Assembly: GCA_019359725.1 (NCBI GenBank) | Contig: JAHHGR010000014.1 | Coordinates: 1 to 64,000, forward strand | Reading direction: 5' to 3' | DNA from: Aphanocapsa lilacina HA4352-LM1 | GTDB lineage: Bacteria > Cyanobacteriota > Cyanobacteriia > Gloeobacterales > Gloeobacteraceae | Length of the DNA: 64,000 bases | In this document: positions 25,828-44,531 of the stretch, one piece after another | How the letters are laid out: every line of letters begins with the position of its first letter | Position numbering within the stretch: position 1 is the stretch's first letter | Position numbers and translations under genes: made by a program | The notes under the pieces: model-generated | Database searches by the model: none | Seen by the model: only the letters and a program-made list of their open reading frames with translations | Told to the model about the DNA's origin: nothing

Positions 25828-27369
25828 CTACAGAGAATGAACCTGTGAGAAAGATTCCCGCAAACCGTTGCAGCTCGAAAGCAGTGCCGGAGGCGTGAGC
25901 GCAGCTGGCTGAACCGGGGCGCGGTTCCCCAGCCAGACTTCCAAACCACCCAGGGGATTGTCGGCGTAAGTCCACTGGCCCTCGGCTTTGACGGCGACTC
26001 TGGGGCCGAAGGGATTGGCGGTGCCGATAAACAGGCCCGCCGGGGTCGAGACGATGTTGCGGATGCCGTAGTTGTAGACGTTGCCGAAACCGCGCCGGTC
26101 CACCGGCAACCAATTCTCGCCGTCGAAAGTGCGCCAGAGTTCAGAACCGCCCTCTTCGTCCACCAGGTTGTCGAGGCCAATCAGTTCGATGATCCGGCGG
26201 ACTTTTGCACTCGTGGCGATATCGGGGCTCATGTAGCGCAAGATCGAACTCCAGTTCATCGTACCGGCGTACAGCCAGCCGTCGTGGGCGCCCATCCGCC
26301 AGATGTAGCCGTTGCGCACGTTGTTGAAGCCGTCGGTAAAGCCGCTGGCCGGAAAGCGCCCGTCGGCGCGCCGCTCGCCGACCAATAAATCCCAGGAGCC
26401 GTCCGGATGGACCCGCAAAATCTCCGCCCCAGCCGGGCCGATGTTGTTTTTCAGGTCGCAGCCGCCGTTCTGGATACCCGTTCCCAGGTACAGCGCGCCT
26501 TTGAAGGGAATCAAACTGACCGCCACCTGGTTGAGGGCGCCGCGGCCCGCACCGCCCTGGATCACGCACTCCCAGCGGTAGGGCGGTTGACCTTCCGCGT
26601 CGGTGCGCCACAACTGAAAACCGGCGTTGTTGAAGGTGCCTGCGTAAAGGTGATCCTCGAAGGTGTTCATGATAAACACCGTCAGGTTGCCGGGATCGCC
26701 GAAGCCGGGTTCGTTGACCGCCCGCCAGATGCCGCCGGCCGGATCGTCGCTCTCGAAGATCATGCAGACGCCGCTGGCGTTCTGGTTGCCGCCTTTGGCC
26801 CCGGTGGGGGCGGTAAAGAGCTTGCCCTTGAAGGGCACCAGCAGGCGGATGCTCGTAAAGGCGAGACCCATCAGGCCGCCTTCGGAGACCGCCTCGAAGT
26901 GCACGCCGTCTTCTGAGCGGACGATCTGCGCTCCCGGTCCCTGGGCGCGGGAGAAATTGCCCAGGTAGAGGGTCGGTCTGCTGTCCGAGGCGCCCTGAAA
27001 CAGGGTCAGCGAACGAAAGCCCATCTCGCGGGCGATGTACTGACCGTGGGAACCCAAGATGAGTGGCGAGCGGAAGACCCGCTCCCAGTGGTCGCTCACC
27101 GGGTCGAAGCGCCAGATCTCAGCAGGGGCGACGCGCTCCTCAAAGTCCGTTGCCGTCAGATCCGAGGCGTCCACGGGCCAGAATTCGGTCTGCAGGGGGA
27201 TCATCGTCTTGAGCTTCTGCAGCACGGCGCGGGTGGTGCCCACGTAGAGTCGGCCCTCGAACCAGCCCATTGCGTGGGCATAGCTGTTGAAGCCGTCTCC
27301 AAGGCCGTTGCGGCAGGTCTTGCGCAGATCTTCCAGGCGCAGGCCGGGCCGCGGTTCGGGGTTGCCCAT
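25828..27369 (-). CDS. Uncharacterised 513-aa protein, possible beta-propeller-like repeats
   Basis: Repeated LYVGT / LYLGN / LYAGT / LYLGT / LYAGT / LFIGT blade-like segments; last gene of the PKS operon. Confidence 0.7.
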   Translation of the reverse strand: MGNPEPRPGLRLEDLRKTCRNGLGDGFNSYAHAMGWFEGRLYVGTTRAVLQKLKTMIPLQTEFWPVDASDLTATDFEERVAPAEIWRFDPVSDHWERVFRSPLILGSHGQYIAREMGFRSLTLFQGASDSRPTLYLGNFSRAQGPGAQIVRSEDGVHFEAVSEGGLMGLAFTSIRLLVPFKGKLFTAPTGAKGGNQNASGVCMIFESDDPAGGIWRAVNEPGFGDPGNLTVFIMNTFEDHLYAGTFNNAGFQLWRTDAEGQPPYRWECVIQGGAGRGALNQVAVSLIPFKGALYLGTGIQNGGCDLKNNIGPAGAEILRVHPDGSWDLLVGERRADGRFPASGFTDGFNNVRNGYIWRMGAHDGWLYAGTMNWSSILRYMSPDIATSAKVRRIIELIGLDNLVDEEGGSELWRTFDGENWLPVDRRGFGNVYNYGIRNIVSTPAGLFIGTANPFGPRVAVKAEGQWTYADNPLGGLEVWLGNRAPVQPAALTPPALLSSCNGLRESFSQVHSL

Positions 27370-27375
27370 GGGGTA

Positions 27376-28968
27376 CTACTCGACGTAGCCGAGCATCTGC
27401 AGCTGTTCGAGCAGCTTCGCCTTTTCGGCTTCGCTGATGCTGCCTTCGTCGGTTTTACCCTGGCCTGCCAGGGCCGCCTCGCCGGTGCGCACGGGGTTCA
27501 CCATCAGGTACTCGTCGTTGAAAAAGTCGACGGTGACCTTGCCCTCGAAGTTGTCGGGGATGGGTAGGCCGAGGCTGTAGAGCAGCGTGGCGGGCGCGTC
27601 GTGGATATTGTGGCGCTCACCCACAAAGCCCGAGCGAATGCCGGGGCCGAAGGCCAGAAACACCCCGTCGGGGTGGTGGGTACCCAGTGGTTCGGGCCGC
27701 TTCTCAACCACCGGGTACACATCGCGGATCGACACGAAGCCGTGGTCGCGCAGGGTGAGGGTCAGATCCGGGGCTTCGGGCAAGGCCGCTCCGTTGTAGA
27801 TGTCCTCGCGCTTGCGCACGGCGGTGATGACCCGCTCACCGGTGGTCGGGTCGACGAGCGCTTCGAGATCGGCGATGAGCCGTTCGCGAAATGCCTTGTA
27901 CTCCTCGGGGGCAATGCCGGGATCGCCCGATTTGACGGCGACGCGAATGACGATGCCGTTGCTTGAGGGGGTCGGACAGTAGGCGCTCGTCTTAGTGAAG
28001 TCGACGTTGGCGAACCAGGAGGCGGTGGGACGGCCGTCGTCGTTGCCGTCACCCGCCTTGAGCACCAGGTAGCCCTTTTCGGCGAGGTAGGCGTTGATGC
28101 GTACGACCTCAAAAGAGGCCGTAAAGCCGTGGTCGGAGTTGAGGAACACCTGGCAGTCGGGACCGGCCAATTCCACCAGTTGCTCAATCCAGCTATCCAG
28201 CTTGCGAAAATATTCGAACGAGAGGGCGCGCAGGGTGAGGTACCCTTCGCTCGGCTCCTCGGGGATCAAGTTCGGATCGAGATAGTAGTAGATCTGGTGC
28301 TGGAGTTTGTCGGTGCCGTCGAAGAGCACCGCCATCAGATCCGGATTATCTTCGGTGAGCAGCTTCTTGGCCACTGCGAACCAGTTTTCGTCGCGGCGGA
28401 TATGGTAGCGGATCCAATCGGCTAGATCCCCCTGGTTGAGCGCTTCCATGATCTGCTTTTCGTGCTCGAAGTCCCAGGCGAGGTTTTTGGGGCTGAAGTC
28501 GGGCAGTTCTTTGAGGCGTTCGTACAGTTCAGGAGGCGAAGTGCTGCGCCGCAGGTGCTTCCAGTGGGTGAAACCGGGCACCAGCGAACCGGTGTTGGGC
28601 CGGGGCGGGGCGGTAAACGGATAGTTGAGGGCAACCACTTTTTTGCCCGCCCGGGTGGCGATCGACCAGATCATCTCGGTCTGCACGTCACGGGCGTCGT
28701 AGAGCGTGTAGAAGACGTCATCGCCCTTTTCTTCCATGCGGATGAAGTCGTAGACGCCGTGGTTGCCCGGGGTACGCCCGGTCATAAACGAGACCCAGGC
28801 GGGTGGGGTGAGCGGGTTGGGCGTCGAGAGCAACTTGGAGCGGGAGCCCTGCTCGAAGATTTTTTTCATAAAGGGCATGGCCAGACCGAGGCCGGGCAGT
28901 TCTTCGACCATCTGGTCGAGCACCGTGAAAGTGGCCCCGTCCAAACCGATTGCTAAAGTTCGAGTCAT
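27376..28968 (-). CDS. Alkaline phosphatase superfamily / type I phosphodiesterase-like protein
   Basis: IGLDGATFTVLDQM...TPPAWVSFMTGRTPGNHGVYDF...FLNSDHGF; 6-nt gap to the downstream gene. Confidence 0.85.
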   Translation of the reverse strand: MTRTLAIGLDGATFTVLDQMVEELPGLGLAMPFMKKIFEQGSRSKLLSTPNPLTPPAWVSFMTGRTPGNHGVYDFIRMEEKGDDVFYTLYDARDVQTEMIWSIATRAGKKVVALNYPFTAPPRPNTGSLVPGFTHWKHLRRSTSPPELYERLKELPDFSPKNLAWDFEHEKQIMEALNQGDLADWIRYHIRRDENWFAVAKKLLTEDNPDLMAVLFDGTDKLQHQIYYYLDPNLIPEEPSEGYLTLRALSFEYFRKLDSWIEQLVELAGPDCQVFLNSDHGFTASFEVVRINAYLAEKGYLVLKAGDGNDDGRPTASWFANVDFTKTSAYCPTPSSNGIVIRVAVKSGDPGIAPEEYKAFRERLIADLEALVDPTTGERVITAVRKREDIYNGAALPEAPDLTLTLRDHGFVSIRDVYPVVEKRPEPLGTHHPDGVFLAFGPGIRSGFVGERHNIHDAPATLLYSLGLPIPDNFEGKVTVDFFNDEYLMVNPVRTGEAALAGQGKTDEGSISEAEKAKLLEQLQMLGYVE

Positions 28969-28970
28969 GG

Positions 28971-29255
28971 CTAATCCTGATTGAGTTTACGGGTTACAAA
29001 GCTGACCAGTTCCTGGACGGAGATATCGCTGACGTACTTGCCGTCGCGCAAAATCAATTCGCTGAAATCGAGTTTGCGCTGAAAGTGCTCCTCGATTTCC
29101 ACCACCAGATGCACGTAGTCGATCGAAGCAAATTCGAGTTCTTCGACCAGGCTGGTCTGGGGCTGGATCTGCTCGACATCAAGGTCCCAATCTGCGGTCA
29201 TCTCCATCAATATTTCGATGATTTCGGTTTCGACTTTCTGGAGTGTGACTGTCAT
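28971..29255 (-). CDS. Acyl carrier protein
   Basis: 94 aa; TSLVEELEFASIDYVHLVVEIEEHF matches the ACP 4'-phosphopantetheine region with ASID as the likely modified serine. Confidence 0.85.
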   Translation of the reverse strand: MTVTLQKVETEIIEILMEMTADWDLDVEQIQPQTSLVEELEFASIDYVHLVVEIEEHFQRKLDFSELILRDGKYVSDISVQELVSFVTRKLNQD

Positions 29256-29275
29256 CGGCTTTCTCTTGTAAATGG

Positions 29276-32200
29276 TTAAGGTTGCCAACCGCAGACGGCA
29301 AAAACTTCGCCGGGGGCGTACCAGAGCCGCACACCAAAGCGGTGCTCGCCGTGGACGATGGTCATCTCGGTGCCCTCCGGGTTGCGCGCCACCACCTGCC
29401 ACCGCCGGGGCGCCCCCTCCAGGCCCGTGCCGAAGGCCTTGGCGGCGGCTTCTTTGGCGGACCAGAGGCCGATGAGGGCCAGGTCCGTAGGCGAACTCAC
29501 CAGTGCCAGTTCGGACGGATCGAAGGCGGCGGTGAGCCAATCGGTGGAACCGAGCCGCTCCAGGCGCTGCAAATCGATCCCCAAGGCCAGATCGTAGGCG
29601 ACCGCCGCCACCGCGTGCCCTTCGCTGTGGGCAATCGAGACTTCCGGCAATGGACCGAAGGCTGCCAGGGCCGCGCAGGAAACCACCGGTTTACCGCGTG
29701 CGTTGCCTAGAATCTCAAAGTCGGCAGGGGCGAGTTGCAGGCCGTAGGCCGCCTCGGTCCATTGCCGGAGGGCTTCTTTGGCTGCGAGGCGACCCAAAAG
29801 CCAGTCCCGCCGCCGGGGGCCTTGATCGGGCAGGGCATACCAGTGGGTGCGCTCCGCCTCGTTCAAGATCAGGTGGGCGGTGACCCGCTTCCAGATTTCC
29901 CAGCTCTCTTCGAGGTAGTCACCCGGATTCTCGTAACGCCGGACAAATAGCCCGGTCTCGGCCTGCATCCAGGGCTCGGACAGATAGTTGACCTGCGGCG
30001 CCACCCGGAAATCCTGGTAGCGCGGCGGCGAGAGAAAGAAACGGCTCTGCCAGCCGGTGAGGCGGTACAGCACGCGCCCTTCGCCATCGATGTAATCGAG
30101 GTGCGATTCGGTGGCATTCTCGCTCAAGTAGCGCGAGGTGCAACGGCACAACAGCCGGGTACCGGGCGGGGGGGACGCTCCGAACTGCTCGAAGGAGCGC
30201 ACCTGGAACGGAAACATGCTGAACTCGGGGCTGTCGATATCCTGCGAGAGCCAGAAGGCCGCAAGCTGCCCCGCCGCGTCGATCAGGCTCTGCTCGATCT
30301 GAAAGACGCCCAGGCGGCCGTCGGCAAAAAAGTCCCCGGTGCCCCAGACGCCTAGATCCGCCTGGATGCCCCGTTCGCCGCAGCAGTGGATGTGCTTGAG
30401 GCTCTGGAAGCGCGGCCCGTGGAACATGCCGGTGCTGTAGAGCCGGTCGTCCGCCAACTCTTCGCTGAGCGGCCACAGCGCGCCGGGATCGAGGTCGCGG
30501 GGGGCCGGGGCGCTCGGGTAGTCGGCGGCGACTGCGATCACTGCCTCGAAAGCCGACAGCCGCACGCTTGCATCTTCGTCGCTTAGCTGAAAAAGCTGCG
30601 CCTGGTAGCGGCCGTCCGGAAGCCGCCGCAGTACCGCTTCGACGGTAAGGGCGCCGCGGTCGAGGGCAAGCCAGCGAAAGCCGCGCACCTCGCCCATAGC
30701 GGTGACCACACCGTTTCCACCGGCCAGATACACCGCCGCCTCCGCCAGAAGCTCCATGCTCGTGGTGAAGGGCAGAATCGGCAGGGGCAACAGCGCAGGC
30801 TGCAGCGCCGAGGGGTTGCCCCCCAGGGTATGGTCGCGCAGGAAGACGTCCTCGTCGATGGTGAAGCGGCGGCGGCAAACCAGCGACTGCGCATCCAGAT
30901 GGATCACCTGACCCAAGAGCGGCCCGGGATCGGCGCTGACGGCCACTTCTGCGGCCTCGGCGGGCGCACCGGTCAGCAGGGCGCTGAGCATGCGGTCCTG
31001 GCTTGCCAGAAACTCCTGCATCAAGGCGAAGTGGTCGGCGATGACCGCAGCGGCCCCCAGATCGTGGCCACTGGTAGGTGTCTGGATGGGCGCGGGGGCA
31101 GCGGGCGGATTCTCCGCAATCGGGACGGCTCGTTCGAGCGTGGCCAGGGCCGCTACTGCCGGCTCCTGGGACGGGGAGCGTGTGGATACGGGCGCGGGCG
31201 CGGGGAGCGGACTCGGCGGATGTGAGCCGTTGGTGGCGGCTTGGGGCGCAGGGACGGGAACGGCGGGAGCCTGCCGCTCGGGCAGCACAAAATCCGGCGG
31301 CAACTCCATGTGCGGCAGCGTCAGATCCAGAACGCGGCCCCGGCGCTTCGGTTTGGCTTCCCCCGGTGCCGGAGGCTGAGGAAGCAGTCCGCGTCGGCTA
31401 TAAAAAGGCGCGAAGCTGACGTGCTTGCCCGAGACGAACAGTTGGCCCACCAGATGCTGAAGTTGTTCCAGGCCGCTCTTGCGCTGGCTGTTGACCGGCA
31501 CGGCTTTGTAGTCGCGGCCTTTGAGCACGTCGTCCACAAAGCCCGTCAGGTTGCCGCTCGGTCCCACCTCGACGAAGTGGCGCACCCCCTGGCTATAGAG
31601 CGCTTCGAGGGTCTCGCGAAAACGCACCCGCGAGGGCCACTGCCGCTCGCCGAGGGTGCGGATGCCCTCCGGATCGTCCGGAAAGAGCCCGACGCTGGCG
31701 CAGCTGAACAGCGGCGTGTGGCCGGGACCGACATCGAGGGCGTCGTAGAAGCCCCGCAGTACCTTGCCCGCCCCTTCGAAGAGCGGTGTGTGATAGGCAC
31801 GGTCGAAAGGCAGGCGGCTGCAGATAGCCCCGGCCGCCTGCAGCCGCTCACCGGCTTCGGTGATGGCCTGCTCGTCGCCAAAAAGCACCACCTGGTTCGG
31901 GCAGTTGTCCATTGCCAGGTGCAGCCGGCCTTCGAGATCCGCCAGCACCCGCTGTAGATCGTCGCTTTTGACCGCTCCCACCGCCAGCAGCGCCCCGCGC
32001 GGCACGATATTCATCTGTTCGAGCCGCTGGTAGAGCCCATTGAGCAACAGCAACTTTTCCATCATCTGGGAGCGGTCCGTGAGGCGCACCACGCCCGAGG
32101 CCACGAGGCTGGTGAGTTCGCCGGTGCTGTGGCCGACCATCACATCCGCTTTGATCTCAAATTGCTGGAGCAGTTCGTAGAGGGCCATGCTGGCGGTGGC

Positions 32201-34138
32201 CACCGAGGCAACGGCCAGTTCCATCTGATAGATCGCCCCGTGGGTCTGTTCCTGGACCTGTGCGTCGATGGCGGTGGGCGGCGGAAAGATGTAGCGGCTG
32301 GGCGGGTGCGGCCTATCTGCGCCCAGGGCCGAATCAAGAAAATCGAACCACTCGCGCACCACCGGAAAGTGCAGACACAGATCGGCGAGCATGTTTGGGT
32401 ACTGGCAACCTTCGCCCGGGAAGATCATCGCTGTCTGCGCGTCTGCCATTTCGGAGGTGACCTCGCCGTACATCACGCCGCCGCGCAGACGGACGCGGCC
32501 GGGTTCTTTGAGCTTCTCGACGGCTTGCCTGAGTTTTTTATCGAGATCCGCCCGGTCCTTGGCGACGACGGCCAGACGGCAATCTCCGGCGGTCCCGGCC
32601 GCCTGGTTGCAGGCGATCTGGGCGAGCGGGAGGGCGGGGTGCACAGCCAGAGTGCGCTCGATCTTGGCGATTAGCCCCGGGCGATCGTCCGCGGCGAAGA
32701 CTACCAGCTCGGTGGGCCAGCGCCGGTGCAAAACCGTATCGGGACCGGTGGGGGTGTGCTCTTCGAGAATGGCGTGGGCGTTGATCCCGCCGAAGCCGAA
32801 GGCGTTGATCCCGGCGCGGCGGGGGCGCTGGTTGGCACTCACCCAGGGCCGGGTGGCATTGTTCAGGTAGAAGGGCGTCTTCTCGACCCCCAGGTCCGGA
32901 TTGACCGCATCGAGCAACGTCGGCGGCAGCACTTTGTGGTAGAGGGCAAGCGCCATTTTGATGAAGCTTGCTGCCCCCGAAGCCGGGATGCAGTGGCCGA
33001 TCATCGATTTGACCGAACCCATGCCGACGCGGGGCAGGTCTCCCTCGCGCGCTCCATAGACCTGGGCGAGCGCTTCCATCTCGGTGCGATCGCCCACCGG
33101 GATACCGGTGCCGTGGGCTTCGACCAGATCCACCGAGGCCGGGTCGATGCCGGTAAGCGAGTACGCCTCTTCAAGAGCCAGCACTTCGCCCTCCAGGCGC
33201 GGGGCGAGCATGCCGAGGGCTTTGCCGTTGCTGGAGCTGCCGACGCCGCGCACCACCGCGTAGATGCGATCGCCATCCAGCTCGGCGTCGGCCAGGCGCT
33301 TGAGCACAAGGATGCCGCAGCCCTCGCCCATGACGTTGCCGTCGGCGGCCCGATCGAAGGGCCGGATATTGGTGCGCGAGAGCGCCCCCAACTGGCAAAA
33401 GGCCATATTGTACTGCGGCGGCAGCGAAGCTTGCACCCCACCGGCCAGAACCAGGTCGCACCGGCCGCTCGCCAGTTCTTTCATGGCCAGTTCGACGACG
33501 ATGAGCCCCGAGGCGCAGGCGGCATCGACCAGATAGTTGGGTCCCATCAAATCGAGACGGTTGGCGATCCGGCCGGTGATCACGTTCGGCACCATGCCCG
33601 GCACCACCTCGGCGTTAAAGGCGGGGGCACTCTTGCGCAGAGCCCTGTGCACAGTGGCCAGGGCTTCTTCGCCCAGTTCCGGACAGACCCGCCGCAGGGT
33701 ATCCATAGTCTGGTCCAGCACCAGGGTCTGCTGGAGCATCGCCATGTGGCCCCGGTTGACGTAGACGCCGTGGCCAAGGATGATTCCCGCTTTTTTGCGG
33801 TTGAAGGGTCGATTGAGGTAGCCCGCGTCGGCCAGGGCATCGCGGGCAAGTTTGAGGGCGATAAAGTGGTCGGGCTCGGCGGCATCCAGGGTATTGGGCA
33901 TGATCCCGAATTCGGTCGGATCGAATTCGGCCAGTTCACCCAAAAAACCGCCCTTGCAGGTGTAGATCCGGTCTTGCTCTTGTGAAGTCGGGTCGAAGTA
34001 GTGCCGTGCCCAGGAAGCCGGCGCCTCGCTCACCGCGTCGACTTTGTCGACGATGTTCTGCCAAAAATCGCCGGCGGTGGCCGCCTTTGGGAACAGCGCG
34101 GCCATGCCGACGATGGCGACGGGCTCGATGGGGTTCAT
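29276..34138 (-). CDS. PUFA/Hgl-type polyketide synthase: KS-AT-DH with C-terminal 4'-phosphopantetheinyl transferase
   Basis: KS (VDAACASGLIV, EAHGTGIPVGDRTEM, GSVKSMIGH), AT (FPGEGCQYPNM, VGHSTGELTS), DH (DHTLGGNPSALQP), C-terminal PPTase (GIDLQRLE...WSAKEAAAKAFGTG). Confidence 0.92.
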   Translation of the reverse strand: MNPIEPVAIVGMAALFPKAATAGDFWQNIVDKVDAVSEAPASWARHYFDPTSQEQDRIYTCKGGFLGELAEFDPTEFGIMPNTLDAAEPDHFIALKLARDALADAGYLNRPFNRKKAGIILGHGVYVNRGHMAMLQQTLVLDQTMDTLRRVCPELGEEALATVHRALRKSAPAFNAEVVPGMVPNVITGRIANRLDLMGPNYLVDAACASGLIVVELAMKELASGRCDLVLAGGVQASLPPQYNMAFCQLGALSRTNIRPFDRAADGNVMGEGCGILVLKRLADAELDGDRIYAVVRGVGSSSNGKALGMLAPRLEGEVLALEEAYSLTGIDPASVDLVEAHGTGIPVGDRTEMEALAQVYGAREGDLPRVGMGSVKSMIGHCIPASGAASFIKMALALYHKVLPPTLLDAVNPDLGVEKTPFYLNNATRPWVSANQRPRRAGINAFGFGGINAHAILEEHTPTGPDTVLHRRWPTELVVFAADDRPGLIAKIERTLAVHPALPLAQIACNQAAGTAGDCRLAVVAKDRADLDKKLRQAVEKLKEPGRVRLRGGVMYGEVTSEMADAQTAMIFPGEGCQYPNMLADLCLHFPVVREWFDFLDSALGADRPHPPSRYIFPPPTAIDAQVQEQTHGAIYQMELAVASVATASMALYELLQQFEIKADVMVGHSTGELTSLVASGVVRLTDRSQMMEKLLLLNGLYQRLEQMNIVPRGALLAVGAVKSDDLQRVLADLEGRLHLAMDNCPNQVVLFGDEQAITEAGERLQAAGAICSRLPFDRAYHTPLFEGAGKVLRGFYDALDVGPGHTPLFSCASVGLFPDDPEGIRTLGERQWPSRVRFRETLEALYSQGVRHFVEVGPSGNLTGFVDDVLKGRDYKAVPVNSQRKSGLEQLQHLVGQLFVSGKHVSFAPFYSRRGLLPQPPAPGEAKPKRRGRVLDLTLPHMELPPDFVLPERQAPAVPVPAPQAATNGSHPPSPLPAPAPVSTRSPSQEPAVAALATLERAVPIAENPPAAPAPIQTPTSGHDLGAAAVIADHFALMQEFLASQDRMLSALLTGAPAEAAEVAVSADPGPLLGQVIHLDAQSLVCRRRFTIDEDVFLRDHTLGGNPSALQPALLPLPILPFTTSMELLAEAAVYLAGGNGVVTAMGEVRGFRWLALDRGALTVEAVLRRLPDGRYQAQLFQLSDEDASVRLSAFEAVIAVAADYPSAPAPRDLDPGALWPLSEELADDRLYSTGMFHGPRFQSLKHIHCCGERGIQADLGVWGTGDFFADGRLGVFQIEQSLIDAAGQLAAFWLSQDIDSPEFSMFPFQVRSFEQFGASPPPGTRLLCRCTSRYLSENATESHLDYIDGEGRVLYRLTGWQSRFFLSPPRYQDFRVAPQVNYLSEPWMQAETGLFVRRYENPGDYLEESWEIWKRVTAHLILNEAERTHWYALPDQGPRRRDWLLGRLAAKEALRQWTEAAYGLQLAPADFEILGNARGKPVVSCAALAAFGPLPEVSIAHSEGHAVAAVAYDLALGIDLQRLERLGSTDWLTAAFDPSELALVSSPTDLALIGLWSAKEAAAKAFGTGLEGAPRRWQVVARNPEGTEMTIVHGEHRFGVRLWYAPGEVFAVCGWQP

Positions 34139-37100
34139 GGACACCTCGCCAATCGATTGAGCGCACGCGAACAGTTGCTCTCACCGTCTTCGAGCACCAG
34201 CCGCACCCGCCCCTGGGAGTCGATCACCGTCGCGTCGTAGACAATCTGGTGATCGCGGACGCTGGTGAGGCGAAAGGCGATGCGCAGCGGGGCTGCAAGC
34301 GGTTCGCTGTCGAAGCGGACCACCCGGCCGATGCGACTGGGAAGGGCAAAAGAGCCCTGGTGGGTGCGCGCCCAAAATAGCGCCAGCTGCGGAATCGTAT
34401 CCAGAAGACCCGGATCGAAAAGCCAACCGGGTAAGGTTTCGGCGGTCTCGAAGAAGCGGGCGGGCTCGCTCGGCCGCACCCGCGCGTCGATGCCCTGCTC
34501 GCCTAGGCGGTCGAGGGCGGTGAGCAACTGGAAGTGCGGACCGTGGAAGGTGTGATCCCGGTAGGCGGTGGCGACATCGAGGGTACTACCCGCGACCGCA
34601 AGCGGCGCAGGCACCTCAACAGCTGCCCCCTCAAGCCGGGGGCGCATAACCACCAATGCCCGGTAAAACGGCGCTTTTTTCTCGGGATCGAAAATTTCGG
34701 CGCTCACCTCAAGGGCGTCGGCGTCGGCGTGGACGGAGGCGCGGGCACTCAAAGTCACCCGCTTGCTCGCCCCTGCACCGCTGTCGGCATCGAGAACGAC
34801 GCCGCGCAGCACGCGCAAGTCGCGCACCTCCAAGACGATCTGATCGGGCCAGGCATTCTGGACGAACTCGGCCAGCCATTCGAGGGCGACCGTCGCAGGC
34901 AGCACCGCTTTGCCATCCATGGAGTGATCGCGCAGGTAGGGATCGCTCGCCAGGGTGAAGGTGTGATCGAGCGTGACGCTGGTGTTGGGTTGCAGCACAA
35001 ACGGCGTGCGGATCAAGGCGAAGGGCCGCACCGGGGCGGTAGCCGCGGCCTCGGGCTTGAAGTTGCCGCGGGTGGCCTCGGCGGTCTCCCAAGGGCCTTC
35101 GCCGACCACCACTTCGATATCTGCGAGCTGGCCGTAGGCCAACTCGTCGAGGAAAGCCTGTCGGCCCGCCGCTAGCGAAATCGGCACGACATTGCGCTTG
35201 CGGAACTGGGCTTTGATGGCCTCGGTCGCCATGCCCGAGTCCCACGGTCCCCAGTTAAAGGAGATCACGCGGGCGGCGGGCCACTGGCGGCGCATCTCAA
35301 AAGCCATGCGGTTGAGCATTTCGTTGGCGGCGGCATAATCCACCTGGCCGCGGTTGCCGAAGCGTCCGGCCACCGAGCTGAACAAGACCACCAGCTTGAG
35401 GGTCTCCGGCCGCAGGCAGCGGGTCAAAGTAAAGGCGAGATCGACTTTGGTGTCGAAGACGCGGCTAAAAGACTCGAAGCTCTTGTCGGCAATCAGCTTG
35501 TCCTCGATGATTCCCGCTCCGTTGATCACCGCGTCCAGGCGACCGTAGCGGGCGTAGATGTCCTCGACCAGCGCGATCAGATCCGCCTCACTGCCGACGC
35601 TGTGGTAACCCACCCGGGCGCCCAACTGCTCGAAGCGCGCCAGGTTCCGGGAGATGGCCCGCTCCTTGAGCAGGTTTTGCACCTGCTGCTCGATGGCGGC
35701 GGGGGTGGGGGTGCGGCCGGACGCCTGCAGCCGGGTCAGAAAGATCTTGCGCAGGGTGGCGATATTTTCGATGCCCGCCGTCTCCACCGATTCAGGGGTG
35801 GGAACCGGGGAGCGGGCGCAGACGATAAGGGTCATGCCGGTCGCCGCCAGGTCCGCCGCGATCTCAGCGGTGATCCCGCGCGCGCCGCCCACGACCAGGG
35901 TCACCCAGTCGCGGCCCGGGACCAGCCGGGGTGGCCCATCACCGGTAAAGGGTGCCGGGGTGGCCTGGAAAACGGTGCGCCGTCCGCCCGGGTAGCCCAC
36001 CTCCTGGCGGCTGTCGGCCGCCAGCAGTTCGGCCACGATGCACGCGGCCATCTGAGCCGGATTCTGGCTCTCGTCGAAGTCGAGGGCCTTTGCGTGGGCC
36101 TCGGGCCATTCCTGGGCGACGGTTTTTACAAATCCACAGGCGGCTCCGCCGACGGCAAGACCGGGGCCGATGATACCCCCCCGGCCCAGTTGCCCCCCCA
36201 GGTAGGAAGCGGCCACGACATGGGCGTTCGCCCCAGCCGCGAGCAGATCGGCGCTGCAGTCGTGAAGCATTTGAAAGAAACTCTTGGCCTGCACCTGGGT
36301 ATGCACTCGCCACTCGGCGAGGCTCTGGGGCGAGCCCGGCCGGGCGAGGGCCGTCAGGTGCACTACACCCGACGCCGGGCCGAAGCGCTCGCGCAACTCG
36401 CGCACGCAGGTACCGAGCAACTCGGGCGATTGCAGCACGGCGGCGGGGATCAAGGCGCTGCGCGCCCCGGCGGCCTGGAGAGCGGGCACCAGGGCGCCCG
36501 CTACTCCCAGTTCGTCCTCGGCAATCAAAAACAGGCCGCTCAGGGTGCGGCCCTCAGTCCGCGGTAGAGGCAGGGTCCGCGCTTCCATCAGGTAGCGCGG
36601 CGCGGCCTCAGCCGCGGACGAGGATTTTTTTGGGCTTTGGCCCCCCTCGGCGGCCGTGGAGGGGATAGCACCCAGGGCGAGCAATTGCTCGATGAGGATG
36701 TTGAGCGTTTTGGCGCGGGTCAGCGACTCCATCTGGCTTTGCAAGGGCGTCGTCCACTCGGCGGGCAGCGCCTTTTGCAGCGCCCCCATAATCTCGACGC
36801 GCTTGATCGAATCGATACCCAGTTCCGCTTCGACGTCTTGATCGAGGCCGAGCACCTCCGCCGGGTAACCGGTGCGCTCGCTCACCAACTCCAGAATCAT
36901 CCGCGTCAATCCCTCGCGGTCGAACCGGATGGCGGGGGCGGCGGCGGCTGGAGCCGGGGCAGCAACGGCAGGCGACGCGCTCGCACCACCCAGGGCGAGC
37001 AATTGCTCGATGAGGATGTTGAGCGTTTTGGCGCGGGTCAGCGACTCCATCTGGCTTTGCAAGGGCGTCGTCCACTCGGCGGGCAGCGCCTTTTGCAGCG

Positions 37101-40100
37101 CCCCCATAATCTCGACGCGCTTGATCGAATCGATACCCAGTTCCGCTTCGACGTCTTGATCGAGGCCGAGCACCTCCGCCGGGTAACCGGTGCGCTCGCT
37201 CACCAACTCCAGAATCATCCGCGTCAATCCCTCGCGGTCGAACCGGATGGCGGGGGCGGCGGCGGCTGGAGCCGGGGCAGCCGGGGCCAGCGTGGCCGCA
37301 CCGTTAGCACTCTTTGCCGGTGCCGGTGCGCCGTGGGCTGCAGAACCGTTGGCCACGGGCACAACCGGGAGAATTGGCGGGTGGACCGCGAGCGGAGCAG
37401 TGGGAGTGGGTGGCGGTGGAGCCGGAGGCGAAGCCGTCGGCAACACAACGGGTGCGGGCGCAGGCAGCGCCGGTGCCGCCGGGGACATGGCGCTCAGCAT
37501 GGGTGGGGCGGCGGGAGCTGGGGGCGCACTTAGCGGTCTGCCGGCGGCAAACTGCAGGAAGTGGCGCATCACTTGCTCCTCGGTCGCTAGGAACTGGCGC
37601 ATGGTCTGCTGGTAGGCCATGTAGGCCTGCAGGGCGAGGTCGTTCGACATGGAGTTGCCTTGCGTGGTGGGTAGCTTGGACGGTCCAGCCGACGCGCCAG
37701 GGGGGGCGACGGGTGAAACAGGAACCGAAGAAACAGGGGCGGCGGCGGCGGGAGCAACCGGCATGTGACCGTTGGTGCGTCCATTGGGGGAGGCGGAAGC
37801 CGGGGCCGACGCCGTGCCGTTGGCGGCGTGGCTGACGACGGTGATCGCCGGGGCGGACGGCGGCGCTGGGGTAGTGGCGGCTTGAACCGGGGCGGCAGGC
37901 TTTGCCGGTGCCGGTGGCGGCGGGGTAGCAGGTTGCTCCCGGGGCGCGACGACGGCGGTGACCCGCGGGGCGGTTTCCAGTGTCAAAGGCGGTTTTTTGC
38001 CGGTGTAGGCTACCGGTTCGCCTGCGGGCCGCGCCACACCGCCGTTGATCAGCCAGGCGGTGGCGGAGCGGGGCGGCTTGGAAGCGGCCAGTTGGGCCGG
38101 GCTGAGCAGTTGGGCCGGGCGCCCGTCGAACAGTGCCGACCAGCGCACACTGACACCGCTGGCTGCAAGCGTTCCCAGGGCCAGCAGCAATCCCCGCAAA
38201 CCGCCACCCTGGCCGTCCAGGGACACAGCCGTGTGCTCGCTGCCTGTGAGAATCTGGCCGATGAGGCGGGTGAGCACCATCTTCGGACCAATTTCGATGA
38301 AGACCCGCGCCCCGGCGGTATGCATCGCGCGGATCTGCTCGACGAATTCGACGGAATTGAGCAAATGGTCGCCCAGTTGTTCACGGATAGCCTGGGGATC
38401 CGACGGGTACGGGCGAGCGTTGGCGTTGGCGTACACCGGCAGCGTCGGCGGTTGGACCGCCGCCTGCTGAATCGCCTCTGTCATCGGAGCCTGGGCGGCC
38501 TGTACCCGGGGCGAATGGAACGCGCCCGCCACGTCGAGCATCCTGGCGTTGCCGCCCTGCTCGACGAGATGTTCGACGATCTGGAGGAGCTTTGGTCTGT
38601 CGCCAGAGAGAACAATCTGGTTCGGGGCGTTGTGGTTGGCCACGATCACCTCGCCGCTGCCGAGTTCGGCCAGGATCGCCTCGACCCACGCCCGGTCGGC
38701 CATCACCGCCGCCATCGCTCCGTCCCCTTCGCCGCAGGCGGCGGCCATCACCCGGCCTCTCACCTCCGACAGGCGCAGAAAATCCTCGCGCGTGAGCACA
38801 CCCGCCGCATGCAGCGCCGCGTACTCGCCGTAGCTGTGGCCGCAGACCACCGCCGGTGCAAGACCCAAACTCGCCGCCAAATCGAGAAAACCCGCTTCGA
38901 TAGCCCCGAGCGCCGGTTGGGCCACCTGGGTGCGGGTGAGTTCCTGCCGCTGGCGGGTCTCGTCGGCTTCGCCGTGGGCGGCGGGCGGATAAATAAAGGC
39001 ACTCAGTGCCCGCGGCAATCGGCCCGCCAGGAGTGCGTCGGCCGCTTCGATGCTGTCGCGCAACTCCGGCCGATAAAGGGCGGCTTCTCGACCCATGTTC
39101 GGGTACTGCGAACCCTGGCCGGGAAAGACGAAGGCGACGCGCTCGGCCGGGACGGCGGGACCGAGGCCCAGGCGGATGTGGTCGGGCAACTCCACCGGCT
39201 GGGAGGAAGCGAGGGCAACCTCCGCCTGCTCGATGGCCTGGGACAACTCCTTGAGGTTGTCTGCGACGATGGCGAGGCGAAACGGCTGAACGCCGCGAGT
39301 TTGGGCCTGGCGCGCGCAGGTATAGGCCAGATCGCGCAGGGAGTGACTGACCCCGGAAGTTGCCGCCTGCCGGATAGCGCGCAAGTCTTTGAGCAAGGCG
39401 TCCTTGCCGCCCGCCTGCCAGACAAACAGCTCCAGCGGCCAGCCGTCGGCGCCGGGGGCGCACGCGCGCCCGCCACCGGTGTACTCTTCAAGCACGGCGT
39501 GGAAGTTGGTGCCGCCAAAACCAAACGCACTCACCCCGGCCCGGCGCGGATGCCCCGCCTCGGCAAACCAGGGGCGTGCATCCGAGAGGAGATAGACCGG
39601 GCTTTGCGGATCGGAGATCGCTGCCAGGGGCGTGTCGATCGCATGGGCGGGCAGCACCCGCCGGTGCAGTGCCAGTGAGGCTTTGATGAGAGCCGCCACC
39701 CCGGCGGTGCTCTTGGTGTGACCGATGAGCACCTTCACTGAGCCGATGGCGCAGGACTTGCTCTGCGCCTGCTCGGCCACCAGCGTCTCGGTGAGGGTGG
39801 TCAGCTCCGAGCGATCCCCGAGGGCGGTGCCGGTGCCGTGGGCTTCGTAAAGCCCCAGTGTCTTGGGCGAGAAACCGGCCTTGCGGTAGGCCCGCTGCAC
39901 GGCGCGCTTCTGGCCCGCCGGCAGGGGGGCGGTCATGCCGAGCGCCTTGCCGTCGCTGGAACCGGCGGTCGACTTGATCACCGCGTAGATGCGGTCGCCG
40001 TCGCGCTCGGCGTCGGCCAGGCGCTTGAGGACCACCATCGCCAGCCCTTCACCGATCACGATGCCGTCGGCCGCCTGATCAAAGGGCCGCGGCTTGCCGC

Positions 40101-42894
40101 CCGGAGTGAGCGCCTGGGTCTTGCTGAAGCAAAAGTACGGGAACGGTCCCTGGCTGGTGTCGACGCCCCCGGCGATCACCATCGCGCTGTGGCCCGTTTC
40201 CAAGTCGCGCACCGCCAGGTGGATGGCGGCGAGCGACGAGGCGCAGGCGGCATCGACGGTGAAGTTGGAGCCGCCGAAGTTGAAGCGGTTGGCCACCCGG
40301 CCGGCGACGACGTTGGCCAGCAGACCCGGGAAGGACTCCTCGGTCCACTCGGGCAGGCGGTCGTAGACCTCGGGGTCGGTGTGGCCGACGATGCGGGGAA
40401 TCTCGGAGCGCGCCGCGTACTGTTGACCTAGGTCGCCGACGCTGCCGCCGATGCCGAAAATCACCGAAGTGTGCTCGCGGTCAAATTCACCCGTCTCGTA
40501 ACCGGCGTCGGCAATCGCCTGGCGCACCGCCTCCAGGGCCAATAGCTGCATCGGCTCGATCGAGCGCAGCGATTTGGGCGGAATACCGAAGCGCACCGGG
40601 TCGAAGGGCACGTCCTCCAGGAAACTGCCCCAGCGCGAGTAGACCTTGTCGCGCTTGTTGGGGTCGCTGTCGAAGTAGAGCCGCCAGTCCCAGCGGTGGG
40701 CAGGGATCTCGCTGATCGTGCTCACTTTTTTGAGGATGTTTTCCCAGTAGGTCTGGCCGTCGAGCGCTCCCGGCAGCAGCGTGCCGATGCCGACCACGGC
40801 GATGTCGCAGGGGCGGTTGGCGTGAACGTCCTGGTCAGCTTCGACTGCGGACTCCGCGAAACCGGCCAGCTGCTCGCTGCCGATTTCACTCACCGTGGCG
40901 TGCAGGTCGCGCACGGTGCAGACCCGGTCGCGCATCGTGGCCACCTGGCCAATCATGTACATGCCGTCTTTGATCTGGGTGGGTTCATCGACCACCTCGA
41001 TGCCCGCGGAGCCGCGCACCATACCCTTTGAGGCGGTGCGCAGGCGGCCCAGGGTCAGATCCTCGAGACCGTTTTTGACTTCTTCTGCCGAATTGCCCGC
41101 CTGGAGCATCCGGCGGCGCGTCTGGTAGAACTCGTGGGCAAAAGGCGTCACCGCGCAGCGGCTGGCATGGCCCGGACCGGTCTCCAGGTTGATCGTGCGC
41201 CGGCAGGCGATGGCCTGCTGCTGGAACTGCGGGACGATAGCACCGCAGGAGACCGCCTCTTCGGTGAACAGATAGGCGCTGCCCATCAGCACCCCGACCT
41301 TCATGCCCCTCTCCGCCAGAGGAGCGGCCAGAGCGCTCACCATCGCCGCCGAGGCCGCGTCGTGGATACCGCCGGCAAACAGAATGTGCATGCGCCCAGC
41401 CTTGTCGGGGCCGACTTCGGCAAGCAGCATCTGCACCATGCTTTCCCAGAGCAGGAAGCTGCTGAGCGGGCCGACGTGGCCGCCGCACTCGCGCCCCTCG
41501 AAGACGAAACGGCAGGCGCCCTGCTCCAGGAACATCTTGAGCAAGCGGGGCACCGGCACGTGGATGTAGGTGGCGATGCCGATCGATTCGAGGTGGGCCG
41601 CCTGGTCGGGCCGCCCTCCGGCAATCAGGGCGAAGGGCGGCTTGATTTCTTTGACGGCCTTGAGTTGCTCTTCGCGCAGCGCGTGGGAGACAAAACCCAA
41701 AATGCCTACTCCCCAGCTACGATCCCCGAGCAGGGCGCGGGTCTTGCTCAGTAGCGCATGCACCTGCTCGCCGCGCATCAGCGCCAGAGCCAGCAGCGGC
41801 AGGCCGCCGCCCCCTGCGACCGCTTCGGCAAATTCGGCCGTGTCGCTCACCCGGGTCATCGGCCCCTGAACGATCGGGTACTCGGTGCGGTGCGACTCGG
41901 CAAGCGGCGCAGCGGGCTTGAGCGGCTGCAGGCGGCGAGCCGTCTCGATGATCCTGGCGCTCTCCTTGAGGATGGCCTGCACCAGGCGGCCAGTGGTGCG
42001 GTAGCGATCGCGCAGACTTGCTGCCAGACCGATTGCCTGCCCCAGCGGCCAGGCCGTCGCAGCCGGATCGCCCCAGCCGATACGCTCTGCAGCCTCGATG
42101 CGCCACTGGCGGAGGCACTGAGGGCGATCCTCGCCCAGATCGAGGCGCTCGGCGAGCGCCTGCAAAGAGGCGATCGCCGCAAAGCCGGGCCGCGCGAGCA
42201 CCCGGCAGGGAATGTCGAGCCGCTCCCCCAGCGCAACGGCTTCCTGACCGTTGAGCTCGTTCAGGTGGCGCTGCCGCTCGGGATCAAGGGGCGATTCGGG
42301 CATCAGCCACATTTGGTCGTCGAGCACCACCCCGGCCGCTCCCGCCACCCGGCAGGCCGCCGCCGTGTGCACCCCAATGCCGCCCTCCACGTACAGCGGA
42401 CCGAACCCCGCCTGCAACAACTTCTGCGCAAGCACGAACGCCGAATCCTCGCCCACCCAGCCGCCGCACTCGTGGCCGCGGGCCACCAGCCCATCCACCG
42501 CCACCCCGGTGTGCGCAAGCCGCTCGGCTTGCTCGATATCGATGACCTCCAGCAGCACCCGGCGCCCCTCGACCGCGCCCAGACCCGCCAGGATGGCGGC
42601 AAGTTCGTCCGCTTCCCAGGCGCTGATCACCAGCCAGTGGGGTTGACCTTGAAGCTCCCGCAGCAATTCGACACTCGTACCCACCTGGCCTGCCGCAAGC
42701 CGCAAGCCGCACACGCCGCCCGCCGCTCCAGCCGCCTCGCGCAACTTGCGCAGACTGGCCGCGGCTACCGGTAGCGCACCGTCCGGACAGAACTCCCTGT
42801 CCAAAATGCCGACTCCGCCCGCGCGCACTGTGGCAATGGCAATACCGGGATAGGTAAATTCAATAGGACTTATCGCTAAGCAGGCAAAGTTCAT
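34135..42894 (-). CDS. PUFA/Hgl-type polyketide synthase: NMO/PfaD-like x2-KS-AT-ACP-ACP-KR-DH
   Basis: N-terminal NMO-like segments (GLVARGHECGGWVG; YPIVQGPMTRVSD...FEGRECGGHVGPL), KS (VDAACASSLAAIHLA, EAHGTGTALGDRSE), AT (VFPGQGSQYPNM, GHSYGEYAAL), two ACPs (ELGIDSIKRVEIMGALQ x2), KR (VGGARGITAEIA...VINGAGIIEDK...YAAANEMLNRMA), DH (DHSMDGKAVLP). Confidence 0.93.
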   Translation of the reverse strand: MNFACLAISPIEFTYPGIAIATVRAGGVGILDREFCPDGALPVAAASLRKLREAAGAAGGVCGLRLAAGQVGTSVELLRELQGQPHWLVISAWEADELAAILAGLGAVEGRRVLLEVIDIEQAERLAHTGVAVDGLVARGHECGGWVGEDSAFVLAQKLLQAGFGPLYVEGGIGVHTAAACRVAGAAGVVLDDQMWLMPESPLDPERQRHLNELNGQEAVALGERLDIPCRVLARPGFAAIASLQALAERLDLGEDRPQCLRQWRIEAAERIGWGDPAATAWPLGQAIGLAASLRDRYRTTGRLVQAILKESARIIETARRLQPLKPAAPLAESHRTEYPIVQGPMTRVSDTAEFAEAVAGGGGLPLLALALMRGEQVHALLSKTRALLGDRSWGVGILGFVSHALREEQLKAVKEIKPPFALIAGGRPDQAAHLESIGIATYIHVPVPRLLKMFLEQGACRFVFEGRECGGHVGPLSSFLLWESMVQMLLAEVGPDKAGRMHILFAGGIHDAASAAMVSALAAPLAERGMKVGVLMGSAYLFTEEAVSCGAIVPQFQQQAIACRRTINLETGPGHASRCAVTPFAHEFYQTRRRMLQAGNSAEEVKNGLEDLTLGRLRTASKGMVRGSAGIEVVDEPTQIKDGMYMIGQVATMRDRVCTVRDLHATVSEIGSEQLAGFAESAVEADQDVHANRPCDIAVVGIGTLLPGALDGQTYWENILKKVSTISEIPAHRWDWRLYFDSDPNKRDKVYSRWGSFLEDVPFDPVRFGIPPKSLRSIEPMQLLALEAVRQAIADAGYETGEFDREHTSVIFGIGGSVGDLGQQYAARSEIPRIVGHTDPEVYDRLPEWTEESFPGLLANVVAGRVANRFNFGGSNFTVDAACASSLAAIHLAVRDLETGHSAMVIAGGVDTSQGPFPYFCFSKTQALTPGGKPRPFDQAADGIVIGEGLAMVVLKRLADAERDGDRIYAVIKSTAGSSDGKALGMTAPLPAGQKRAVQRAYRKAGFSPKTLGLYEAHGTGTALGDRSELTTLTETLVAEQAQSKSCAIGSVKVLIGHTKSTAGVAALIKASLALHRRVLPAHAIDTPLAAISDPQSPVYLLSDARPWFAEAGHPRRAGVSAFGFGGTNFHAVLEEYTGGGRACAPGADGWPLELFVWQAGGKDALLKDLRAIRQAATSGVSHSLRDLAYTCARQAQTRGVQPFRLAIVADNLKELSQAIEQAEVALASSQPVELPDHIRLGLGPAVPAERVAFVFPGQGSQYPNMGREAALYRPELRDSIEAADALLAGRLPRALSAFIYPPAAHGEADETRQRQELTRTQVAQPALGAIEAGFLDLAASLGLAPAVVCGHSYGEYAALHAAGVLTREDFLRLSEVRGRVMAAACGEGDGAMAAVMADRAWVEAILAELGSGEVIVANHNAPNQIVLSGDRPKLLQIVEHLVEQGGNARMLDVAGAFHSPRVQAAQAPMTEAIQQAAVQPPTLPVYANANARPYPSDPQAIREQLGDHLLNSVEFVEQIRAMHTAGARVFIEIGPKMVLTRLIGQILTGSEHTAVSLDGQGGGLRGLLLALGTLAASGVSVRWSALFDGRPAQLLSPAQLAASKPPRSATAWLINGGVARPAGEPVAYTGKKPPLTLETAPRVTAVVAPREQPATPPPPAPAKPAAPVQAATTPAPPSAPAITVVSHAANGTASAPASASPNGRTNGHMPVAPAAAAPVSSVPVSPVAPPGASAGPSKLPTTQGNSMSNDLALQAYMAYQQTMRQFLATEEQVMRHFLQFAAGRPLSAPPAPAAPPMLSAMSPAAPALPAPAPVVLPTASPPAPPPPTPTAPLAVHPPILPVVPVANGSAAHGAPAPAKSANGAATLAPAAPAPAAAAPAIRFDREGLTRMILELVSERTGYPAEVLGLDQDVEAELGIDSIKRVEIMGALQKALPAEWTTPLQSQMESLTRAKTLNILIEQLLALGGASASPAVAAPAPAAAAPAIRFDREGLTRMILELVSERTGYPAEVLGLDQDVEAELGIDSIKRVEIMGALQKALPAEWTTPLQSQMESLTRAKTLNILIEQLLALGAIPSTAAEGGQSPKKSSSAAEAAPRYLMEARTLPLPRTEGRTLSGLFLIAEDELGVAGALVPALQAAGARSALIPAAVLQSPELLGTCVRELRERFGPASGVVHLTALARPGSPQSLAEWRVHTQVQAKSFFQMLHDCSADLLAAGANAHVVAASYLGGQLGRGGIIGPGLAVGGAACGFVKTVAQEWPEAHAKALDFDESQNPAQMAACIVAELLAADSRQEVGYPGGRRTVFQATPAPFTGDGPPRLVPGRDWVTLVVGGARGITAEIAADLAATGMTLIVCARSPVPTPESVETAGIENIATLRKIFLTRLQASGRTPTPAAIEQQVQNLLKERAISRNLARFEQLGARVGYHSVGSEADLIALVEDIYARYGRLDAVINGAGIIEDKLIADKSFESFSRVFDTKVDLAFTLTRCLRPETLKLVVLFSSVAGRFGNRGQVDYAAANEMLNRMAFEMRRQWPAARVISFNWGPWDSGMATEAIKAQFRKRNVVPISLAAGRQAFLDELAYGQLADIEVVVGEGPWETAEATRGNFKPEAAATAPVRPFALIRTPFVLQPNTSVTLDHTFTLASDPYLRDHSMDGKAVLPATVALEWLAEFVQNAWPDQIVLEVRDLRVLRGVVLDADSGAGASKRVTLSARASVHADADALEVSAEIFDPEKKAPFYRALVVMRPRLEGAAVEVPAPLAVAGSTLDVATAYRDHTFHGPHFQLLTALDRLGEQGIDARVRPSEPARFFETAETLPGWLFDPGLLDTIPQLALFWARTHQGSFALPSRIGRVVRFDSEPLAAPLRIAFRLTSVRDHQIVYDATVIDSQGRVRLVLEDGESNCSRALNRLARCP
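36671..37281. repeat. Tandem direct repeat encoding two identical ACP domains
   Basis: 36671-36963 and 36989-37281 (293 nt each, offset 318) read as identical base for base. Confidence 0.92.
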
Positions 42895-43612
42895 CTTCTC
42901 TAAATCCTCTGTAAAATATGCGTCGATTGGGTGAGGCTGCCAAAAAATGTCCGATCTTTCTTGAGAAACAGTTCAAAGCAAACCCCGGAACAACCTACGA
43001 CCAGCAAATAAATGCGACCTACCAAAGCAAGGCAACGCACTTGTCGGGCTGCCTGACGAGCTATTTGGTGGACACAATTCAATCACCCCCGAATAGAACA
43101 GGTTGTAGCCACTTACACCGTTGCCCAGCGTTCCGGTAGGTACGTTCGGCACCAATTTCAAGCTCAAACCTTCAACTCGGACGGGCAGGCCCCCGCAACC
43201 CCGCCGCTCTCCGATGCATAGTTATCATACTTTCATCGGATCTTGCAAGTTCTTGAACACACTTTGGTTGCGTATCCCGGCTTTGTCAAGCCCAACAAGA
43301 GGCGCCATCGTGCCTGTTTCACCGCTTCGCTGGAATGTGTGTTTTAAAGCACTAAAGAAGTGAAATTCACAGTAAGTCTTAGTATTTACTGGATTTATTA
43401 AGATGGGTTGTAATAAAGATATCTTGTGCAAACTGAATTGCTGAAATTCCACAAATTGGGCTTGTTGACGGGTCGCATCGATTCGGTGATCTTTGGCGGG
43501 CAAGTTGGGGAAAAGTGCGGCTGCTCCGTCGTATTGCAACTTCCTTTAGTTTGTCCGTCTCCCCTGGTACGATGCCCTAAGATGGCTATCGCATGCATCC
43601 GAAGGGGGTATC

Positions 43613-44128
43613 GTGATCGACTTGAGTAAGATTCCCGCCCGCCCGAAGGAGGGCCTGATCAACGTTCTGGTGGAAATTCCCGGACGTTCCCATAACAAGT
43701 TTGAGTTCGACAAGGACCTGGGGATTTTTGCCCTCGACCGTGTGCTCTATGCTGCAGTGTACTATCCGGGCGATTACGGTTTTGTCCCGAAGACGCTGGC
43801 GGATGACGGCGATCCGCTCGATGGGCTGGTATTGATGGACGAGCCGACTTTTACAGGATGTCTTATCGCTGCGCGGCCGATCGGGGTGCTCGGGATGATC
43901 GACAGCGGCGAGGGGGACGAGAAGATTCTCTGTGTGCCCGTCAAAGATCCGCGCTACGCAGGGGTCAAGGATCTTTCGGACATCGCCCAGCACCGCCTTG
44001 ACGAGATTGCCGAATTTTTTGCCACCTACAAACGCCTTGAAAAAAAGGTGACCGAGATCACCGGCTGGCAGGGGGTGGAAGTGGCTCAACGACTTGTGGA
44101 CCAATCCATCGCGGCCTACACGCCGTAA
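43613..44128 (+). CDS. ppa: Inorganic pyrophosphatase
   Basis: [16 protein letters not shown]...[24 protein letters not shown]...[15 protein letters not shown]. Confidence 0.95.
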
Positions 44129-44153
44129 ACCAACCAAGGGGGGTAAGGAGCCC

Positions 44154-44531
44154 ATGCTACGCACCGTGCTACTCGGCAAAATCCACCGCGCCACCGTGAC
44201 TGGAGCCTGTCTGGAGTATGTGGGTTCGATCAGCATCGACAGCAGTCTGCTCGCGGCGGCGGGTATCCTGCCCCACGAACAGGTGCACGTCGTCAACCTC
44301 AGCAACGGCGCGCGCCTGGTCACCTACGCCATCGAGGCCAGCGAAGGTTCTGGGGCGGTGGTCCTCAACGGTGCAGCGGCCCGTTTGGCAGCAGCCGGCG
44401 ATCGGGTGATTATCCTGGCCTACGGCCAGGGCACGGCTGTTGAACTGGAGCACCACCAACCCCAGGTGGTGTACGTCGATGCTCACAACCGCATCGTCTC
44501 AGTCCACAGGAGCGTCGAACACGCTGGTTGA
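44154..44531 (+). CDS. panD: Aspartate 1-decarboxylase
   Basis: MLRTVLLGKIHRATVTGACLEYVGSISIDSSLLAAAGILPHEQVHVVNLSNGAR; GS cleavage site. Confidence 0.95.
   Translation: MLRTVLLGKIHRATVTGACLEYVGSISIDSSLLAAAGILPHEQVHVVNLSNGARLVTYAIEASEGSGAVVLNGAAARLAAAGDRVIILAYGQGTAVELEHHQPQVVYVDAHNRIVSVHRSVEHAG

Follow-up and report, generated by a model that had tools for sequence, protein, structure and literature searches.

An Ars-like iterative lipid-synthase operon of Gloeobacter whose phosphodiesterase alternates with a sulfotransferase among relatives

Neither the product nor the release step is known for most types of bacterial secondary-lipid synthase. Among the described systems, the Ars phenolic-lipid pathway is the closest to the operon reported here: in Azotobacter, the acyl chains made by ArsA are C23–C25 in length and ArsD carries a PPTase annotation (PMC4824345), and the Ars cluster of Beijerinckia indica represents Type P in the classification of Shulse & Allen (PMC3098273). 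Type O, whose letter adjoins P in the KS-tree lettering, is carried by Gloeobacter violaceus, Dinoroseobacter shibae and Parvularcula bermudensis and was listed with no product given; the PPTases of Types M–T, O and P included, display the motifs x(G/D)xP and hShxH and no P0 motif (Shulse & Allen 2011, PMC3098273). In the CurM/OLS systems, a sulfotransferase (ST) sulfonates the β-hydroxyacyl-ACP and a thioesterase then releases a terminal alkene, with loss of CO2 and sulfate (PMC3903477). Finally, the thraustochytrid PUFA synthase contains a heterodimer of two ER domains, one stabilising the other, both of which retain the His (PMC13311796).

Here we describe a five-gene operon found in a window of 64,000 nucleotides (the whole stretch of DNA that was analysed), taken from a Gloeobacteraceae assembly of 99 contigs and 4.2 Mb. 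Gloeobacter is an early-branching cyanobacterial genus without thylakoids, and its envelope lipids bear on cyanobacterial evolution. Comparative genomics narrows the question of how this synthase terminates to the swap of a single position, held either by a phosphodiesterase (PDE) or by a CurM-type ST, and to an obligate partner, P5.

Architecture and affinity of the synthase

The operon encodes two multidomain synthases (P1 and P2), a free ACP, the PDE (P4) and P5 (Table 1). The original prediction, made from the DNA alone, had described five packed minus-strand genes, and all five were recovered in place from open reading frames and Pfam matches. P2 starts at an ATG at 34138 that overlaps the P1 stop codon by 4 nt (ATGA), with a GTG at 34144 as an alternative start; the gaps that follow measure 20 nt (P2 to ACP), 2 nt (ACP to PDE) and 6 nt (PDE to P5). 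Pfam assigns NMO, KS, AT, PP-binding, KR and PS-DH domains to P1, and KS, AT, PS-DH and ACPS domains to P2. This content supports the prediction of an iterative lipid synthase, here of type I, that supplies its own ER and PPTase activities.

Table 1 Features of the operon and the evidence for each
Feature	Coordinates	Strand	Evidence
P1, PksA-like synthase, 2919 aa: NMO(degenerate)-NMO(ER)-KS-AT-ACP-ACP-KR-DH	34135..42894	-	ORF, Pfam/NCBIfam
NMO1, FabK-like, catalytic His replaced (GGW)	41905..42894	-	Motif comparison with relatives
NMO2, FabK-like enoyl reductase, GGH intact	40915..41889	-	PF03060, TIGR03151; GGH invariant
KS1, active Cys (DAACASS)	39475..40806	-	Pfam, motif, KS tree (ArsA grouping)
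AT1, malonyl-type (GHSYGEY)	38245..39132	-	PF00698, motif
Tandem ACP x2, PUFA-type LGIDSIKRVEI motif	36670..37287	-	Pfam, motif
KR, SDR Tyr conserved	35239..35901	-	PF08659, motif
DH1, PS-DH type dehydratase, DHxxxGxxxxP	34177..34986	-	PF14765/PF21089, motif
P2, PksB-like synthase KS-AT-DH-PPTase	29276..34138	-	ORF, Pfam
KS2, active Cys retained	32756..34126	-	Pfam, motif
AT2 (GHSTGE)	31424..32425	-	PF00698, motif
DH2, PS-DH type dehydratase	30041..30922	-	PF14765, motif
PPTase domain of P2: P1a RGKP, P1b' VSIAH, no P0 motif	29279..29947	-	PF01648, motif check
Free ACP, 94 aa, carrier Ser conserved	28971..29255	-	Pfam, NCBIfam, motif
PDE (P4), AlkP-superfamily type I phosphodiesterase	27376..28968	-	PF01663 E 1.3e-48
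P5, β-propeller protein	25828..27369	-	AF2 model, Foldseek, co-occurrence

All five genes recur in unchanged order in G. violaceus (on the PCC 7421 chromosome), in G. kilaueensis and in a third genus-mate, that is, in 4/4 Gloeobacter genomes examined, with per-domain identities to the three other genomes of mostly 66–99%. Since domain and gene order are repeated in all three, the operon is not a product of chance or misassembly. Synteny with G. violaceus runs upstream to 58 kb and ends directly after P5, which therefore marks the edge of the cluster on that side. The number of ACPs in the synthase varies between relatives (one in G. kilaueensis, two in the window, three in G. violaceus and five in Haliea), and the two copies in the window are near-identical. 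Two more Pfa/Hgl-like synthase loci are present in the window's genome (contigs C69:603-8396 and C6:57775-72921). G. kilaueensis showed nothing closely matching either locus, which leaves the cluster in the window as the one conserved across the genus.

Judged by its sequence, the synthase is closest to the ArsA/ArsD phenolic-lipid FAS, on which the double NMO, the KS tree and the PPTase motifs concur. KS1 lies in a supported clade (97/95) with the ArsA-type KS of Beijerinckia indica and Methylosinus plasmids, as sister to these two and outside them; the KS domains of the two other Pfa/Hgl-like loci fall outside this clade. The Beijerinckia cluster encodes an NMO-NMO-KS-AT-ACP2-KR protein and a DH-PPTase protein along with two type III PKSs; its NMO2 and KS are 57% and 53% identical to those of the window. 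The Ars systems of Azotobacter vinelandii and B. indica thus share with the window a double NMO on a KS-AT-ACP-ACP-KR core, a DH-PPTase protein in the operon, the KS clade, the PPTase motifs and a degenerate first NMO. By contrast, the DH-PPTase protein of the window carries an additional KS-AT, the operon adds a free ACP, the PDE and P5, and no type III PKS (chalcone-synthase-type) gene was found in it among open reading frames or Pfam matches.

This comparison also changes how the fusions are viewed. They had been taken for an unusual rearrangement of a Pfa/Hgl system, an interpretation that finds no support, since the Beijerinckia Type P cluster likewise has a fused double NMO and a DH-PPTase protein. 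Of the two enoyl-reductase-like domains predicted in P1, only NMO2 is intact: the GGH motif is confined to NMO2 and is invariant there. NMO1, which receives no Pfam call and is seen as a 330-residue block kept in relatives, has GGW in the window and GGR, GGQ or GGV in some relatives, Ars-type proteins among them. With its His replaced here and in some relatives, NMO1 is a degenerate partner. By analogy, the NMO1–NMO2 pairing may parallel the thraustochytrid ER heterodimer, although NMO1 lacks the His.

A standard PUFA or heterocyst-glycolipid synthase of the Pfa/Hgl type shares the KS-AT-tandem ACP-KR core with the window; P1 exceeds the NCBIfam cut-off for PfaA (TIGR02813, 1157.7 versus 1010.1 bits), and its tandem ACPs carry the LGIDSIKRVEI motif. 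We nevertheless regard this assignment as very improbable. KS2 retains its active Cys and is therefore no CLF, so neither the KS-CLF pair of PfaC nor the KS-CLF-AT organization of the HglC partner is present, P2 being KS-AT-DH-PPTase. Pfam and motif searches of P1 and P2 detected PS-DH domains only and no FabA-type DH such as the DH2 of PfaC, there is no separate PfaD, the ER and PPTase are fused to the synthases, and KS1 groups with ArsA in another KS clade. The two other Pfa/Hgl-like loci in G. violaceus are a better fit to this class. The sponge swf PKS family, which combines a reductase with a sulfotransferase, was also considered and was ruled out by its different domain order.

Because the PPTase of the window fits the rule for Types M–T (x(G/D)xP and hShxH present, P0 absent) and G. 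violaceus is a Type O carrier, the synthase is probably Type O, with the two other Pfa-like loci of G. violaceus as competing candidates. The operon is thus real and conserved, and its synthase is of a class described before but with no product assigned; the text of PMC3098273 makes no mention of a phosphodiesterase.

P5 accompanies the synthase

We searched a single set of 390 genomes from one cyanobacterial class with three queries: P5, the DH-PPTase part of P2, and the PDE. Positives numbered 15, 13 and 10 genomes, respectively. P5 is present in 13/13 of the DH-PPTase genomes, for which the probability by chance is about 2e-22 (about 4e-13 when counted by genus), and in 10/10 of the PDE genomes. 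Two P5 genomes had no DH-PPTase match: in G008 the synthase is cut by a contig end, and G131 has a divergent Ars-like synthase. The synthase is also found in three further P5 genomes, those of Haliea sp. E1-2-M8, a deltaproteobacterial MAG and Symplocastrum torsivum. P5 is thus an obligate companion of the synthase. Against genome contigs, a single-sequence P5 query returned three loci, a reach that an alignment query would have extended; a plasmid search found no P5.

Labelled uncharacterised at the outset, P5 indeed has no Pfam match, but it is no orphan: it is a β-propeller that goes with the synthase in cyanobacteria and proteobacteria alike. Its AlphaFold (AF2) model is a β-propeller with a pLDDT of 85.3, for which Foldseek retrieves generic propellers only (TM about 0.3–0.5, normalised by query length). 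The conserved residues include several Arg, Trp and Asn and no His. An arylsulfate sulfotransferase-like propeller was ruled out by the absence of a conserved His and of any ASST match in Pfam, alignment or Foldseek. Some relatives carry P5 as a fusion with a methyltransferase (L039 and L046) or a PlsC-like acyltransferase (L045), and on this basis it belongs with tailoring enzymes.

A second locus of the window's genome (L121; contig C3, 984-5633) encodes a P5 paralogue, a TauD-type oxygenase and two sulfotransferases. At least two other Gloeobacter and related genomes conserve a locus of this kind, and in Symplocastrum one adjoins P5 (L047). The L121 locus likely contributes to the same pathway in trans. 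A halogenase function for its dioxygenase was rejected on the HGE motif, which provides a carboxylate ligand; from its sequence, a hydroxylase or desaturase appears likelier.

A phosphodiesterase and a sulfotransferase alternate beside the ACP

The metal ligands and Thr54 of the PDE are conserved (alignment and residue check). No export signal is evident in it, its fold model is poor (pLDDT 60), and on plasmids only haloarchaeal proteins of 25–29% identity were matched. In one P5 genome (G216), the ACP downstream of P2 is instead fused to a sulfotransferase whose nearest solved structures are the CurM ST (4gbm, E 1e-62) and a cyanobacterial OLS ST (4gox). Using this ACP–ST protein as a query against all 15 P5 genomes, we found full-length fusions in G131, G216, G254, G292 and G387, exactly the five that have no PDE, so that a CurM-type ST occupies the PDE slot in these sister clusters. 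The ten PDE genomes returned a free ACP or distant sulfotransferases only, and the window's genome itself an ACP match and a distant trans ST pair, with no CurM-type ST on the terminal ACP. Across 18 P5 genomes (these 15 plus the three named above, all PDE-type), 13 have ACP and PDE, 5 have the ACP–ST fusion and none has both. At genus level the exclusion is modest (p 0.003). Sulfotransferases of another subfamily are present in trans in PDE genomes.

The two enzymes are thus mutually exclusive, which establishes an interchangeable position and not the same chemistry. Phosphodiesterases hydrolyse phosphodiesters or transfer them and, unlike STs, are not known to use PAPS. Fusions of an ACP to a CurM-like sulfotransferase, associated with iterative synthases of Ars-like type, are seen at L036:8085-9419 and in G131, G254, G292 and G387; these clusters are predicted to make long-chain terminal alkenes and differ from the modular PKS of OLS.

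Most relatives have an α/β-hydrolase next to P5, the PDE or the ST. Downstream of the synthase in Haliea, the deltaproteobacterial MAG and Symplocastrum, the order is ACP-PDE-hydrolase, with no ACP–ST. The arrangement ACP-(ST or PDE)-hydrolase parallels the ACP-ST-TE order of CurM/OLS, and the ACP of the ST-type sister clusters is fused to a genuine ST of the CurM kind. Given how an ST and a thioesterase effect release in CurM/OLS, the ACP, PDE and hydrolase together are laid out like a termination cassette in which the PDE takes the place of the ST. The window differs from CurM/OLS in having a PDE for the ST, no neighbouring hydrolase and an iterative ArsA-like synthase. The hydrolase is absent beside the Gloeobacter cluster, and only weak, partial matches to it occur elsewhere in Gloeobacter. 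Although present in most PDE clusters, it thus appears to have been lost in this genus, where a termination cassette of this kind would not by itself account for release. In the papers searched, a coverage that excludes most subscription journals, the DH-PPTase/P5 co-occurrence, the PDE/ST alternation and the parallel between ACP-PDE-hydrolase and ACP-ST-thioesterase are undescribed.

Possible roles of the phosphodiesterase

With moderate confidence, we view the operon as an iterative FAS/PKS of the ArsA/ArsD branch in which the PDE would do what the ST does in sister clusters, either terminating the chain or acting at the head-group stage. In such a pathway, the fused PPTase would activate the ACPs, AT1 would load malonyl units, KS1 and KS2 would condense them, and the tandem ACPs of P1 would carry the growing long acyl chain. 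Reduction would fall to the KR, both PS-type DHs and the single functional FabK-like ER, which is paired with its dead copy. The finished chain would pass to the free ACP, where the translationally coupled PDE may act in termination or on the head group, as the counterpart of the ACP-fused CurM/OLS-type ST. The α/β-hydrolase would be the thioesterase in most relatives, missing in Gloeobacter, and P5 may be a dedicated partner or a late tailoring or binding protein.

Alternatively, the PDE and P5 may act after release. The synthase would then yield a long-chain fatty acid or diol, the PDE would trim or transfer a phospho head group, and the PDE/ST alternation would reflect phosphate versus sulfate heads. 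The polar head-group role suggested in the original prediction survives in this form, as a possible but doubtful alternative, while the comparison of genomes places the PDE where a CurM-type ST would sit. Consistent with action after release, the PF01663 family, in which the PDE keeps every metal ligand and Thr54, includes head-group transferases such as the GPI ethanolamine-phosphate transferases; additional sulfotransferases occur in trans with P5 paralogues, and the P5 fusions to methyltransferases or the PlsC-like acyltransferase fit as well. However, the gap of 2 nt between ACP and PDE and the fusion of the alternative ST to that same ACP indicate an ACP-bound substrate, and the closest characterised STs act on β-hydroxyacyl-ACP. 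It is quite unlikely, in our judgement, that the PDE cleaves off or recycles the 4'-phosphopantetheine arm of the neighbouring ACP (as an ACP hydrolase, or by releasing an acyl-phosphopantetheine) in opposition to the fused PPTase. The adjacency and coupling of ACP and PDE, with a PPTase in the same operon, would suit such a role, but it leaves the replacement by an ACP-fused CurM-type ST unexplained, and known ACP hydrolases have different folds.

If the PDE does act on the ACP-bound chain, as we favour, it could be a phosphorus-based counterpart of the CurM/OLS ST: transfer of a phosphoryl or phospho-head group onto the β-hydroxyacyl chain would activate or cap it for release, giving a terminal alkene or a phospholipid-like product, with P5 as an obligate new component. 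We put this specific chemistry forward as speculative and rather unlikely.

Elsewhere in the window, two FG-GAP/TIG repeat proteins lie near each other (11532-12968 and 14619-15632) and have no relation to the operon. A divergent, membrane GT2 glycosyltransferase and a family-less minus-strand protein of 245 aa (43586-46032) adjoin the operon here and also in G. violaceus and G. kilaueensis; a head-group enzyme is possibly among them.
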